Of a stretch of DNA of 34,629 nt, positions 2,778 to 33,921 are shown in pieces. Where the stretch lies: NCBI GenBank assembly GCA_905236865.1, contig CAJOQX010000329.1:1-34629 (forward strand), read 5' to 3'. A program made the translations under genes and the position numbers. Position 1 is the stretch's first letter. Each line of letters starts with the position of its first letter. This DNA is from Candidatus Rifleibacteriota bacterium. GTDB taxonomy: Bacteria; Muiribacteriota; Ozemobacteria; Ozemobacterales; Ozemobacteraceae. Under the pieces are notes generated by a model. The model worked only from the letters and a program-made list of their open reading frames with translations. It made no database searches and was not told the origin of the DNA.

Positions 2778-3566
2778 ATGATGAGATCATTGTGGTCAGC
2801 ATCCACTGGCATGAAAGGTCAAGAAACTAATATTGCTGTTGTTTCTAACAACTTGTCAAATGTTTCAACTACAGGCTTCAAGAAACAACGTGTTGACTTT
2901 GAAGACTTAATGTATCAGACAATCGTTGAATCAGGTGCTCCTATAACCGCTGATATAAAATACCCTGTAGGCGTTCAGTTAGGTCATGGTGTTAAACCAG
3001 TTGCTACTCATAGACTTTTCTCTCAAGGTGAATATCAACAAACTGACGAATCACTAGACGTAGCAATTGAAGGGGAAGGATTCTTCCAAGTTCAGTTGCC
3101 TAGTGGTGATATTGCTTATACAAGAGATGGTTCATGGAAAATATCAGAAGATGGTATTATTGTAAACTCTAATGGTTATACAATTCTTCCAGAAGTAACT
3201 ATTCCACAAGATGCACTAGGTATCAATATTACTGCCAATGGTATTATTGCAGCAAAGATGCCTAACCAAACAGATCTCGAAGTCATTGGTCAAATTGAAT
3301 TAGCAGACTTTATTAACCCATCAGGTTTAAGAGCTTTGGGTAAAAACTTATTCGTTCCCACAGCAAGTTCAGGTGACCCCGTTGTTGGTATACCTGGTCA
3401 AGAAGAATTTGGTGAAATAGCTCAGGGCTTTATAGAAATGTCTAACGTTAAAGTTGTTGAAGAAATGGTTAATATGATTGTTGCTCAACGTGCTTATGAA
3501 GCAAATTCTAAGACTATTCAAACATCAGACACCATGCTTCAGATAGCAAACAATCTCAGGAGATAA
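2778..3566 (+). CDS. flgG: Flagellar distal rod protein FlgG
   Basis: MRSLWSASTGMKGQETNIAVVSNNLSNVSTTGFKKQRVDFEDLMYQT...VKVVEEMVNMIVAQRAYEANSKTIQTSDTMLQIANNLRR; RBS ggagg upstream. Confidence 0.95.
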   Translation: MMRSLWSASTGMKGQETNIAVVSNNLSNVSTTGFKKQRVDFEDLMYQTIVESGAPITADIKYPVGVQLGHGVKPVATHRLFSQGEYQQTDESLDVAIEGEGFFQVQLPSGDIAYTRDGSWKISEDGIIVNSNGYTILPEVTIPQDALGINITANGIIAAKMPNQTDLEVIGQIELADFINPSGLRALGKNLFVPTASSGDPVVGIPGQEEFGEIAQGFIEMSNVKVVEEMVNMIVAQRAYEANSKTIQTSDTMLQIANNLRR

Positions 3567-14524: not shown

Positions 14525-14646
14525 TCATTAATACGACAATGAAATAACGAAAATTTGTGTTTCTGATTTTGTCATTGCGAGAGACTGTGCTAAAACTCGT
14601 AATTTGATGAAAAATCAGTGTTTATTTGTTTGTAGCCTACCCATTG

Positions 14647-14697
14647 TCATAAACGTATAGCTTTCAGGCCTAAAGCCCTTAAGCTATACGTTTATGA
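14647..14697. repeat. Perfect 17-bp inverted repeat (hairpin)
   Basis: TCATAAACGTATAGCTT - 17 nt - AAGCTATACGTTTATGA. Confidence 0.9.
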
Positions 14698-14737
14698 TAA
14701 ATATGTAGACTTTTCTTATCTCTCGATTCTTTTAAAA

Positions 14738-30660: not shown

Positions 30661-30728
30661 CTTCATATTTTTATCTTATTATTTAAAAAATAAAACGTAT
30701 AAAACAATTACAATCGTGAAAAACTATA

Positions 30729-30757
30729 TTGACATAATTGTATAAATTTTATATATT
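30729..30757 (+). promoter_or_regulatory. Putative sigma70 promoter of xre
   Basis: TTGACA-N17-TATATT. Confidence 0.65.
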
Positions 30758-30761
30758 CGTA

Positions 30762-30775
30762 TTGCATAAACGTAA
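30762..30775. promoter_or_regulatory. Candidate operator downstream of the xre -10 box
   Basis: TTGCATAAACGTAA (reverse complement TTACGTTTATGCAA), 12/14 identical to TTACGTTTGTGAAA at 32206-32219. Confidence 0.45.
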
Positions 30776-30805
30776 AAAATAATAAGACTTATCCGAGGGC
30801 AACAA

Positions 30806-31366
30806 ATGATTGATTCTAAAAATACAAAAACTCCATATCTAGATTTTGGCCAACGTTTACAAGAACTTCGCAAAAAATTTAAACTATCTAGAGCTCAACT
30901 CGGCGAAAAATGCGGAGTTGCTCAAAGCACTATAGTAAATTACGAAAATGGCACACGTATCCCTTTTGCCGATACAGCTACAAAAATGGCGGCAGTTTTT
31001 GGTTTAACAGTTGAAGAACTGCTAGGCATAGAAAATAGCAATATCGAAATGAAAAAAGCAGAAGCTTTAGATTCTTTGAAAAATTTTTATGGCAAAAAAG
31101 GGGCAGAACAAGCTCGTGCTCTTATCGAAGGAGCAGGAAGCCTTCTTGCTGGCGGAACATTAACTCTTGAACAACAAGAAGACTTTATTCTAGAAATGCA
31201 AAAATTGTTCATTATAGCTACCGAAAAAAATAGAGCAAAGCGTAATCCAGAAAAATATAGCTCTAAATCAAAAGAGCATCTTAAACGTGTCGCAGAAATA
31301 GACAAAAAACTCGCAAGGAAAAATAGATATAATTCCTTCTTAGACGAAGAAGAATTTCATGATTAG
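30806..31366 (+). CDS. XRE-family transcriptional regulator (helix-turn-helix plus C-terminal domain)
   Basis: FGQRLQELRKKFKLSRAQLGEKCGVAQSTIVNYENGTRIPFADTATKMAAVFGLTVEELLG. Confidence 0.9.
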   Translation: MIDSKNTKTPYLDFGQRLQELRKKFKLSRAQLGEKCGVAQSTIVNYENGTRIPFADTATKMAAVFGLTVEELLGIENSNIEMKKAEALDSLKNFYGKKGAEQARALIEGAGSLLAGGTLTLEQQEDFILEMQKLFIIATEKNRAKRNPEKYSSKSKEHLKRVAEIDKKLARKNRYNSFLDEEEFHD

Positions 31367-31371
31367 GTCAA

Positions 31372-32133
31372 ATGGAAATAACAAAAGCTTTCTATAAAAT
31401 AGACAATATAATCAAGAAAATAGGAAGCAACAACCCTGAAGAAGTAGCTTCTTACTTAAACTACGAAATAGTTCCTTTAACTAGTAGTCTTGTTGGTTAT
31501 ATTGCAAGAATAAAAAATCAGACTATTATCGGCATAAACAGCCGTCTAAGTCCTATTAAACGCAAATTTGATATTTGGCATGAAATAGGTCATGGAATTC
31601 TAGGACATTTAAATGAAAGTACCTTTACAAGTTTCGGCAACTACCATTTAGATGAAACTCTTTTTGCTCCAAATCAGCAGTTAAACAGCAAAACATTAAG
31701 CCGTCACGAACGTGAAGCCAATCTTGTTGCCGCCGAATATTCTATAGATACATTTAAAATATTAGAAATGATTGGTTACAATAATTCTGTAATAAAGCAA
31801 TTCCGTAATTTGACAACCGTTCAACAACAGCTTAGACGTGAATATGAAACTCTTTTGTTTGCTTTTCAAAATAATTCTAATAATTCAAAAATACAGAATT
31901 ATCGCCTTATAGAATATAAAAAAGAACTAGCTAAATTAGACGAAAAAAAACTCGAATTGGGAAGAGAAATTTCTGAATATGAGATTTTGTCTATACCAGA
32001 AATAGCTCGTAATTTACACACAAGTAGCATTATAATCGAATATAAACTTGAAGCTATACGTCAAAGAGGTTACGACATCGATAGTATTGAATTACCTAAT
32101 TACAACAAAGTTTTCAAACAAGAAGCGGTTTAA
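31372..32133 (+). CDS. ImmA/IrrE (COG2856) family metallopeptidase
   Basis: KFDIWHEIGHGILGHLNEST (HExxH) and SRHEREANLVAAEYSID. Confidence 0.9.
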   Translation: MEITKAFYKIDNIIKKIGSNNPEEVASYLNYEIVPLTSSLVGYIARIKNQTIIGINSRLSPIKRKFDIWHEIGHGILGHLNESTFTSFGNYHLDETLFAPNQQLNSKTLSRHEREANLVAAEYSIDTFKILEMIGYNNSVIKQFRNLTTVQQQLRREYETLLFAFQNNSNNSKIQNYRLIEYKKELAKLDEKKLELGREISEYEILSIPEIARNLHTSSIIIEYKLEAIRQRGYDIDSIELPNYNKVFKQEAV

Positions 32134-32166
32134 CTTTTATTTATTTTTTTATTTTCGTGAATTTTC

Positions 32167-32195
32167 TTGACACAAATGTGAAAATTAAATATTAT
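32167..32195 (+). promoter_or_regulatory. Putative sigma70 promoter of the Y-family polymerase gene
   Basis: TTGACA-N17-TATTAT; the -35 box sits in the dyad TTGACA-CAAA-TGTGAA. Confidence 0.65.
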
Positions 32196-32205
32196 ATGAA
32201 TATAG

Positions 32206-32219
32206 TTACGTTTGTGAAA
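32206..32219. promoter_or_regulatory. Candidate operator downstream of the polymerase promoter
   Basis: TTACGTTTGTGAAA, matching the xre promoter motif. Confidence 0.45.
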
Positions 32220-32267
32220 TTATTTCATTAATGTGAACTTATTGTTGTTTTATAATTATCTCTTTTC

Positions 32268-32340: not shown

Positions 32341-33714
32341 ATGACAAACAGAATCTATATATGTATCGACTTAAAAAGTTATTATGCCAGTGTAGAATGT
32401 GTATTCCGCAATCTAGACCCATTAAAAGCCTATCTTCTTGTTGCTGATGAATCACGCACCGACAAAACAATATGTTTAGCGGTTTCCCCTGCATTAAAAG
32501 CTTTAGGTGTTCCTGGCAGACCTAGATTATTTGAAGCAAAGCAAAAAATCCGTGAAGCTGAATCTCTGATGAAAAAAAAGATAGATTATATTGTGGCAAC
32601 ACCTCGAATGTCCGCTTATATAAAGCAATCTGCTGAAATATATAATATTTATTTGAAATATATATCTTCAGAAGATATTCATGTTTACAGCATAGATGAA
32701 GTTTTTATGGATGTAACAAATTATTTACACTTGCATCAAAATTCTGCTCATAAAATGGCAATAACCATGATTAAAGACGTTTTAAAAAATACAGGTATTA
32801 CCGCTACCGCAGGAATAGGCACTAATATGTTTCTTGCTAAAGTTGCTATGGATATAATTGCAAAAAAATCTATCGCTGATTCTGATGGAGTAAGAATAGG
32901 TGAATTAAACGAAAATTCTTATCGTAAAAAACTTTGGGATCATAAGCCATTAACTGATTTTTGGCAAATTGGAACAGGCACATCAAATAGACTAAAACGC
33001 TATGGTATTAATACAATGGGCGATATTGCAGAATATTCCATATATAACGAGGAACTGCTATATAAACTTTTCGGCATTAATGCAGAAATTTTAATAGACC
33101 ATGCCTGGGGCTTAGAACCCTGCCTTATGAAAGACATAAAATCTTATAAACCTAAAAATAGCAGTTTAAGCAGTGGGCAAGTCCTGCCTAGACCTTACAA
33201 ATTCCAAGAAGCTCAAATTATCGTGAAAGAAATGGCAGACTTATTAAGTTTAGATTTAGTGCAAAAAAATCTTGTTACTGAATCTATTACTCTTTATATC
33301 GGATTTGACCACGAATCTTTTTGTAATTATGATGATTCTTGTTATATAGACCATTATGGAAGAATTATCCCTAAACCAGCAGGCGGTACAATTAGGTTTT
33401 CTTGCCCTACAAATTCAAACCAAGAAATAACTAAAGCATTTTTATCCATTTTTAATAACGAAAAAATAGTTAATCGTAATTTACTTATTAGACGGGTTAA
33501 TATTTGTGCAAACAAAATATCTAAAAAATCAAGGTATCATCAGTTAGAATTATTTAAAGATTACGAAAAAGAAAATAAAGAAAACAATCTACAAAAAGCT
33601 ATATTACAAATTAAATCTAAATATGGTTGCAATTCACTTTTAAAGGGAATGAATTTTCTCGAAGCTAGCAGAACCAAAGAAAGGATTTCTCAAATAGGAG
33701 GACATAAGGCATAA
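32341..33714 (+). CDS. Y-family DNA polymerase (UmuC/DinB-like)
   Basis: YICIDLKSYYASVECVFRNLDPLKAYLLVADESRTDKTICLAVSPALKALGV; HVYSIDEVFMDVT; TATAGIGTNMFLAKVAMDIIAKKSIADSDGVRIG. Confidence 0.95.
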   Translation: MTNRIYICIDLKSYYASVECVFRNLDPLKAYLLVADESRTDKTICLAVSPALKALGVPGRPRLFEAKQKIREAESLMKKKIDYIVATPRMSAYIKQSAEIYNIYLKYISSEDIHVYSIDEVFMDVTNYLHLHQNSAHKMAITMIKDVLKNTGITATAGIGTNMFLAKVAMDIIAKKSIADSDGVRIGELNENSYRKKLWDHKPLTDFWQIGTGTSNRLKRYGINTMGDIAEYSIYNEELLYKLFGINAEILIDHAWGLEPCLMKDIKSYKPKNSSLSSGQVLPRPYKFQEAQIIVKEMADLLSLDLVQKNLVTESITLYIGFDHESFCNYDDSCYIDHYGRIIPKPAGGTIRFSCPTNSNQEITKAFLSIFNNEKIVNRNLLIRRVNICANKISKKSRYHQLELFKDYEKENKENNLQKAILQIKSKYGCNSLLKGMNFLEASRTKERISQIGGHKA

Positions 33715-33735: not shown

Positions 33736-33921
33736 ATGTCTAAATACAATGATATAATCAATAAACATCGCCCAATACATAAAAATGATTATTTCTCTTT
33801 CAAGCACCCTCCAATGAATAGAAAGCAACGTGCAAAGCTTTTTATGGCTTTTGATGCTTTAAGCGGTTTTAGTGAAGAAATAAATAAAGTAAAAAAAAGA
33901 GACGAACTTTTTTGGATATAA
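33736..33921 (+). CDS. YolD-like small protein
   Basis: 61 aa; HPPMNRKQRAKLFMAFDALSGFSEEI resembles the MSxxdRAaqFaPFaALtGf signature of small YolD-like proteins next to Y-family polymerases. Confidence 0.7.
   Translation: MSKYNDIINKHRPIHKNDYFSFKHPPMNRKQRAKLFMAFDALSGFSEEINKVKKRDELFWI

Follow-up and report, generated by a model that had tools for sequence, protein, structure and literature searches.

The window analyzed here, a 34,629-nucleotide stretch of DNA from a member of the Candidatus Rifleibacteriota, contains a cassette of genes on the forward strand. Its first gene, xre (positions 30806 to 31366), encodes a 186-aa XRE-family repressor (Pfam HTH_3, 4.7e-14). The second, irrE (31372 to 32133), encodes an ImmA/IrrE-type M78 metallopeptidase of 253 aa that has WHEIGH and RHEREA motifs (Pfam Peptidase_M78, 2.5e-11). 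The third (32341 to 33714) encodes a 457-aa Y-family translesion DNA polymerase resembling YqjW/UvrX. The polymerase has both the Y-family catalytic domain (Pfam IMS, 8.8e-27) and the C-terminal domain (IMS_C), ends in the tail QIGGHKA, and has PRK03103 as its best NCBIfam match, under the cut-off. The last gene (33736 to 33921) encodes a 61-aa protein with no Pfam match. It resembles the N-terminal arm found in YolD-like proteins, and across about 50 aa it shares 46 to 53% identity with proteins encoded 3' of related polymerases. It appears to correspond to this arm alone; an arm-only variant of YolD-like proteins has been described (PMC12926913).

We compared the cassette with three Riflebacteria genomes of the same genus, here called sister genomes; relatives in this genus include Candidatus Riflebacteria MAGs from goat and reindeer. 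The xre orthologues in the sister genomes are 77 to 82% identical to that of the window, the gene order xre, irrE, polymerase is unchanged, and in each of the four species studied in this genus the M78 gene directly follows xre. In the sisters the polymerase gene starts at the irrE stop with zero gap, whereas in the window the two genes are separated by a 207-bp gap that holds the polymerase's own promoter. None of the genes 5' of the window xre was found at the sister loci, so the cassette occupies different contexts in different species, which suggests that it moves. In one sister (contig G003:C47) a tRNA-like sequence lies just 5' of the xre promoter. Searches of phages, plasmids, and viral contigs returned only distant relatives of the XRE protein or the polymerase and identified no mobile carrier.

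Both promoters in the window are close to the sigma-70 consensus. The xre promoter (30729 to 30757, forward strand) has a -35 element TTGACA, a 17-bp spacer, and a -10 element TATATT, and the polymerase promoter (32167 to 32195, forward strand) has TTGACA, a 17-bp spacer, and TATTAT; each matches the consensus at 11 of 12 positions. The original prediction was that a 17-bp motif shared across these two -35 regions, and covered by a dimeric helix-turn-helix (HTH) repressor, extends well beyond the hexamer. The two 17-mers, TTGACATAATTGTATAA at 30729 and TTGACACAAATGTGAAA at 32167, are identical at 13 of 17 positions, as described. This identity fails as evidence of a shared motif, as 3 of 36 pairs of TTGACA sites in the window match equally well. 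For two TTGACA-seeded 17-mers in AT-rich sequence, the probability of at least 7 matches in the remaining 11 positions is approximately 0.015 to 0.017 (approximately 0.016 per random pair). Taken alone, these numbers favor the explanation that the motif is the sigma-70 consensus plus AT-rich sequence, with no common operator. The near-dyad noted in the polymerase copy is present, but its center had been placed 1 bp off; the true dyad is 14 bp long (GACACA-AA-TGTGAA, 32169 to 32182).

The sister genomes provide independent evidence on this point. In each of the three, the 14-bp dyad TTCACR-WW-YGTGAA occurs three times in the xre promoter, for example as TTCACGAACGTGAA and as the perfect palindrome TTCACAATTGTGAA. 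Their spacing is fixed, with O1 followed after 23 bp by O2, which lies over the -35 element, and after a further 38 bp by O3. The site at the xre -35 element is thus kept in all three sister species, as the original prediction required of a genuine motif. A matrix trained only on these nine sister sites was then applied to the window. At a threshold of 8.5 bits, which was chosen after the sites had been seen, it gave seven sites among the 326 start positions scored in the two intergenic stretches; elsewhere in the window, 5 such sites occur in 34,290 positions, so that 0.05 would be expected in 326. None of 5000 shuffles reached three sites at xre or four at the polymerase.

All seven predicted operators are given on the forward strand, with scores from the sister-only matrix. 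Those at xre are O1 (ATTACAATCGTGAA, 30707 to 30720, 12.5 bits), a degenerate O2 over the -35 element in the same position as the sister O2 (GACATAATTGTATA, 30731 to 30744, 8.9 bits), and a degenerate O3 near the predicted start site (TGCATAAACGTAAA, 30763 to 30776, 8.7 bits). Those at the polymerase are O1 (TTTATTTTCGTGAA, 32148 to 32161, 9.0 bits), O2 over the -35 element, which is the site noticed originally (GACACAAATGTGAA, 32169 to 32182, 16.2 bits), O3 (GTTACGTTTGTGAA, 32205 to 32218, 15.5 bits), and O4 (TTCATTAATGTGAA, 32224 to 32237, 11.0 bits). The polymerase sites are stronger overall than the xre sites. The AIM24 promoter contains no operator, in agreement with the earlier observation that it lacks the motif.

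These results leave little room for an explanation by sigma-70 consensus and base composition, which we consider very improbable. The conserved CACR and YGTGAA lie mostly outside both hexamers, sites occur 5' and 3' of the promoter as well as over it, spacing is fixed in the sisters, and the sister-trained matrix gives seven sites against an expected 0.05. At the level of sequence, the independent sister-genome data confirm that the element shared by the two promoters is real. The polymerase promoter shares 77 to 79% identity with the sister xre promoters and 63% with the xre promoter of the window, as would be expected from an old duplication or transfer.

Homologues of the XRE protein in other bacteria suggest which protein may bind these sites. 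A scan by XRE family alone yielded 26 loci, mostly from Firmicutes, and a Y-family polymerase is encoded within approximately 4 kb in 17 of the 26, a number that includes the three sister genomes. Two arrangements recur: XRE (with or without M78), a YqjW/UvrX-type polymerase, and a YolD-like protein on one strand; and XRE, again with or without M78, divergent from DinB. The latter is found in two genomes of the same family (G008 and G016), where XRE-M78 is divergent from DinB and operator-like sequences TTGACAAATACGCAA and TTGACTTACGCAA lie on the two -35 boxes. At loci L034 and L035 (approximately 2340 to 2610; another genus of the same family), where XRE-M78 is divergent from a DinB polymerase, TACGCAA-type repeats are common to both -35 boxes. 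In a Clostridia locus (L071), the XRE protein is 44% identical and its recognition helix, AQST, is the same as in the window; the sites there are TTCACGTCCGTGTT and GACACGTTCGTGAA, the latter on the -35 element (TTGACACGTTCGTGAA). In a Lachnospiraceae locus (L070), the XRE protein is 60% identical with a changed helix (GRT), and the sites are partly similar, with the 23-bp spacing and left half kept and the right half different; no polymerase was found beside this XRE gene. Where the helix is of another type, the repeats differ as well (GTTGCGC-GCGCAAC, for example), and at loci whose helices are clearly different, no TTCACR-WW-YGTGAA-type site was found just 5' of xre. Extending the search to the order of L071 and to the family of L070 brought in few additional homologues. 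It is mainly because the site changes together with the recognition helix, as judged by eye rather than by a formal statistic, that we name the XRE protein as the putative binder. Together with conservation in the sisters, the -35 site of L071 makes a dimeric HTH repressor over the -35 element of both promoters the best-supported reading. The original prediction had overlooked the further operators at each promoter, the adjoining protease of the IrrE type, and the association of this XRE family as a whole with Y-family polymerases.

In Bacillus, YqjW/UvrX polymerases have been placed under LexA control, by prediction or by experiment (PMC6511836), and the three sister genomes encode LexA. If the sites were LexA boxes, the polymerase would be an ordinary SOS gene. 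However, the lexA promoters of the sisters have a TTCGC-repeat motif in common and no XRE-type site, the LexA motifs GAAC-N4-GTTC and CTGT-N8-ACAG are absent from the xre and polymerase promoters, and in other bacteria the site varies as the recognition helix of XRE does. We therefore see hardly any likelihood that these are LexA boxes. LexA was not found in the genome from which the window derives, an absence that is uninformative at 79% completeness. In five of six genomes, no Y-family polymerase was detected other than that of the cassette.

The predicted regulator looks dedicated to the xre/polymerase cassette, based on the distribution of matching sequences. A promoter sequence model matched cassette promoters in four genomes with E values of 2.2e-20, 5.3e-19, 1.1e-18, 1.0e-14, and 1.1e-12; since all five of these promoters served to build the model, what is informative is that no other promoter reached an E value below 1e-11. 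The next best match had an E value of 0.005 and adjoins unrelated genes (G000:C208), and none else was convincing, with the reservation that two of the four genomes are 69 to 79% complete and targets may be missed. Genome-wide matches to a single operator were at control level in three of the four genomes, so we do not claim a global regulon. One operator match (G000:C400) was rejected on the grounds that it falls within an ssb-like gene. Two matches in the window, at 14646 and 14685, were rejected as part of an intergenic inverted-repeat element at 14630 to 14710 (CCCATTGTCATAAACGTATAGCTT ... AAGCTATACGTTTATGA). A 17-mer of this element recurs twice in one sister (L032 of G002, at 2432 and 5974), and the element appears to be repeated within the genus. 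Inside irrE, a 14-mer that resembles a strong operator, GTCACGAACGTGAA, covers the RHERE codons (31703 to 31716), where the sisters have GTTACGAACGTGAA or AATACGAACGTGAA. It was set aside as an operator because it follows conserved codons; it probably reflects coding constraint, but may serve as a roadblock operator. Near position 3110 of another locus (L114, contig G000:C79), two good operator-like sites 33 bp apart flank a TTGACA, 5' of two ORFs, one ankyrin-repeat-like and the other nuclease-like. This locus is a possible second target of the repressor.

We propose that the shared motif is an operator of the neighboring XRE repressor, dimers of which would bind the 14-bp dyads 5' of, over, and 3' of the -35 and -10 elements. 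The XRE protein would repress its own xre-irrE operon as well as the polymerase gene, the latter from its own promoter in the window species; with weak sites at xre and strong sites at the polymerase, the polymerase should be held more tightly. By analogy with related systems, DNA damage, for example in the form of single-stranded DNA, probably activates the adjoining ImmA/IrrE-type metallopeptidase, which would cleave the XRE protein. Expression of the Y-family polymerase, together with its YolD-arm-like partner, would then follow with no need for LexA. M78 proteases of the IrrE/CapP kind are known to cleave XRE partners when stimulated by single-stranded DNA (PMC10904395), and ImmR is cleaved by ImmA (PMC8072749). 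Consistent with this, the zinc motif HEIGH (HEXXH) and the downstream ERE of the M78 protein are intact in the window and the three sisters. The best natural solved-structure match of the XRE HTH is ImmR of ICEBs1. A fold search with the XRE model gave no match of E < 0.001; in it, DdrO (6jq1) aligned over the HTH only, leaving the C-terminal half unmatched.

Alternatively, the XRE protein may repress both promoters and be released by another signal, or act in a toxin-antitoxin-like role, rather than respond to damage-triggered M78 cleavage. Four Firmicutes cassettes (L071, L080, L089, and L092) have no recognized M78 gene adjoining xre, so cleavage is not universal there. This alternative is harder to reconcile with the four species of the genus, in which M78 lies 3' of xre with HEXXH and ERE intact, and with related pairs that work through cleavage (PMC10904395), and we regard it as unlikely. 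We consider it probable that the polymerase is held off by the XRE protein and released via M78 cleavage, which would constitute a LexA-independent switch for translesion synthesis.

No description of an XRE/M78-polymerase linkage was found in the literature searched, which covered only part of what is published. A known case of an XRE-type repressor that controls a UmuC-like polymerase is HdiR, with umuC, in Lactococcus lactis. HdiR is a self-cleaving S24-type protein, whereas the protease of the cassette is an M78 enzyme distinct from the repressor. The best reading of the proposed switch is that it is a variant of the DdrO/IrrE, ImmR/ImmA, and CapH/CapP kind. Like DdrO/IrrE (PprI), which governs the radiation-desiccation response of Deinococcus, it pairs an XRE repressor with an M78 metallopeptidase and has predicted operators in promoters of DNA repair genes and predicted autoregulation. 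DdrO acts on a 17-bp RDRM and a regulon of approximately 20 genes (PMC5552922); in contrast, the operator here is a 14-bp dyad and the target is local, a translesion polymerase, with no multi-gene repair regulon found in four genomes. The Deinococcus translesion cassette is regulated by LexA, and DdrO/IrrE acts on other repair genes (PMC8072749); in the window, by contrast, the polymerase is itself the predicted target of the repressor-protease pair. ImmR/ImmA of ICEBs1 and prophages likewise places an XRE repressor, the closest to ours in its HTH among natural solved structures, beside an M78 (COG2856) antirepressor, but controls element excision rather than a DNA polymerase. CapH/CapP of CBASS operons also combines an HTH repressor with an M78 protease, and the window proteins give weak PADLOC matches to capH and capP; cleavage there is activated by ssDNA (PMC10904395), and the target is the CBASS immune operon instead of a repair polymerase. 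The polymerase itself resembles the YqjW/UvrX-YolD type, a putative Gram-positive counterpart of Pol V, with the conserved C-terminal tail and an adjoining small YolD-arm-like protein, although the latter has no Pfam YolD match. The Bacillus forms differ in being tied to LexA (PMC6511836); XRE and IrrE are not mentioned in that paper, nor are XRE and ImmA in PMC12926913.

We speculate that this arrangement extends beyond the genus. There is about an even chance that an XRE family, usually with an ImmA/IrrE protease and with operators that change together with the recognition helix, provides a widespread LexA-independent mutagenesis switch for single Y-family polymerases across Firmicutes and Riflebacteria. 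If the proposal is correct, error-prone translesion synthesis in these gut bacteria would be induced by a protease-repressor pair and not by RecA/LexA, and Firmicutes carrying the cassette would share this route of induction. For the rumen bacterium from which the window derives and its relatives, the switch would govern the only Y-family polymerase detected in most of the genomes. With its operators defined, it would offer a second route to mutagenesis after DNA damage that can be tested directly.
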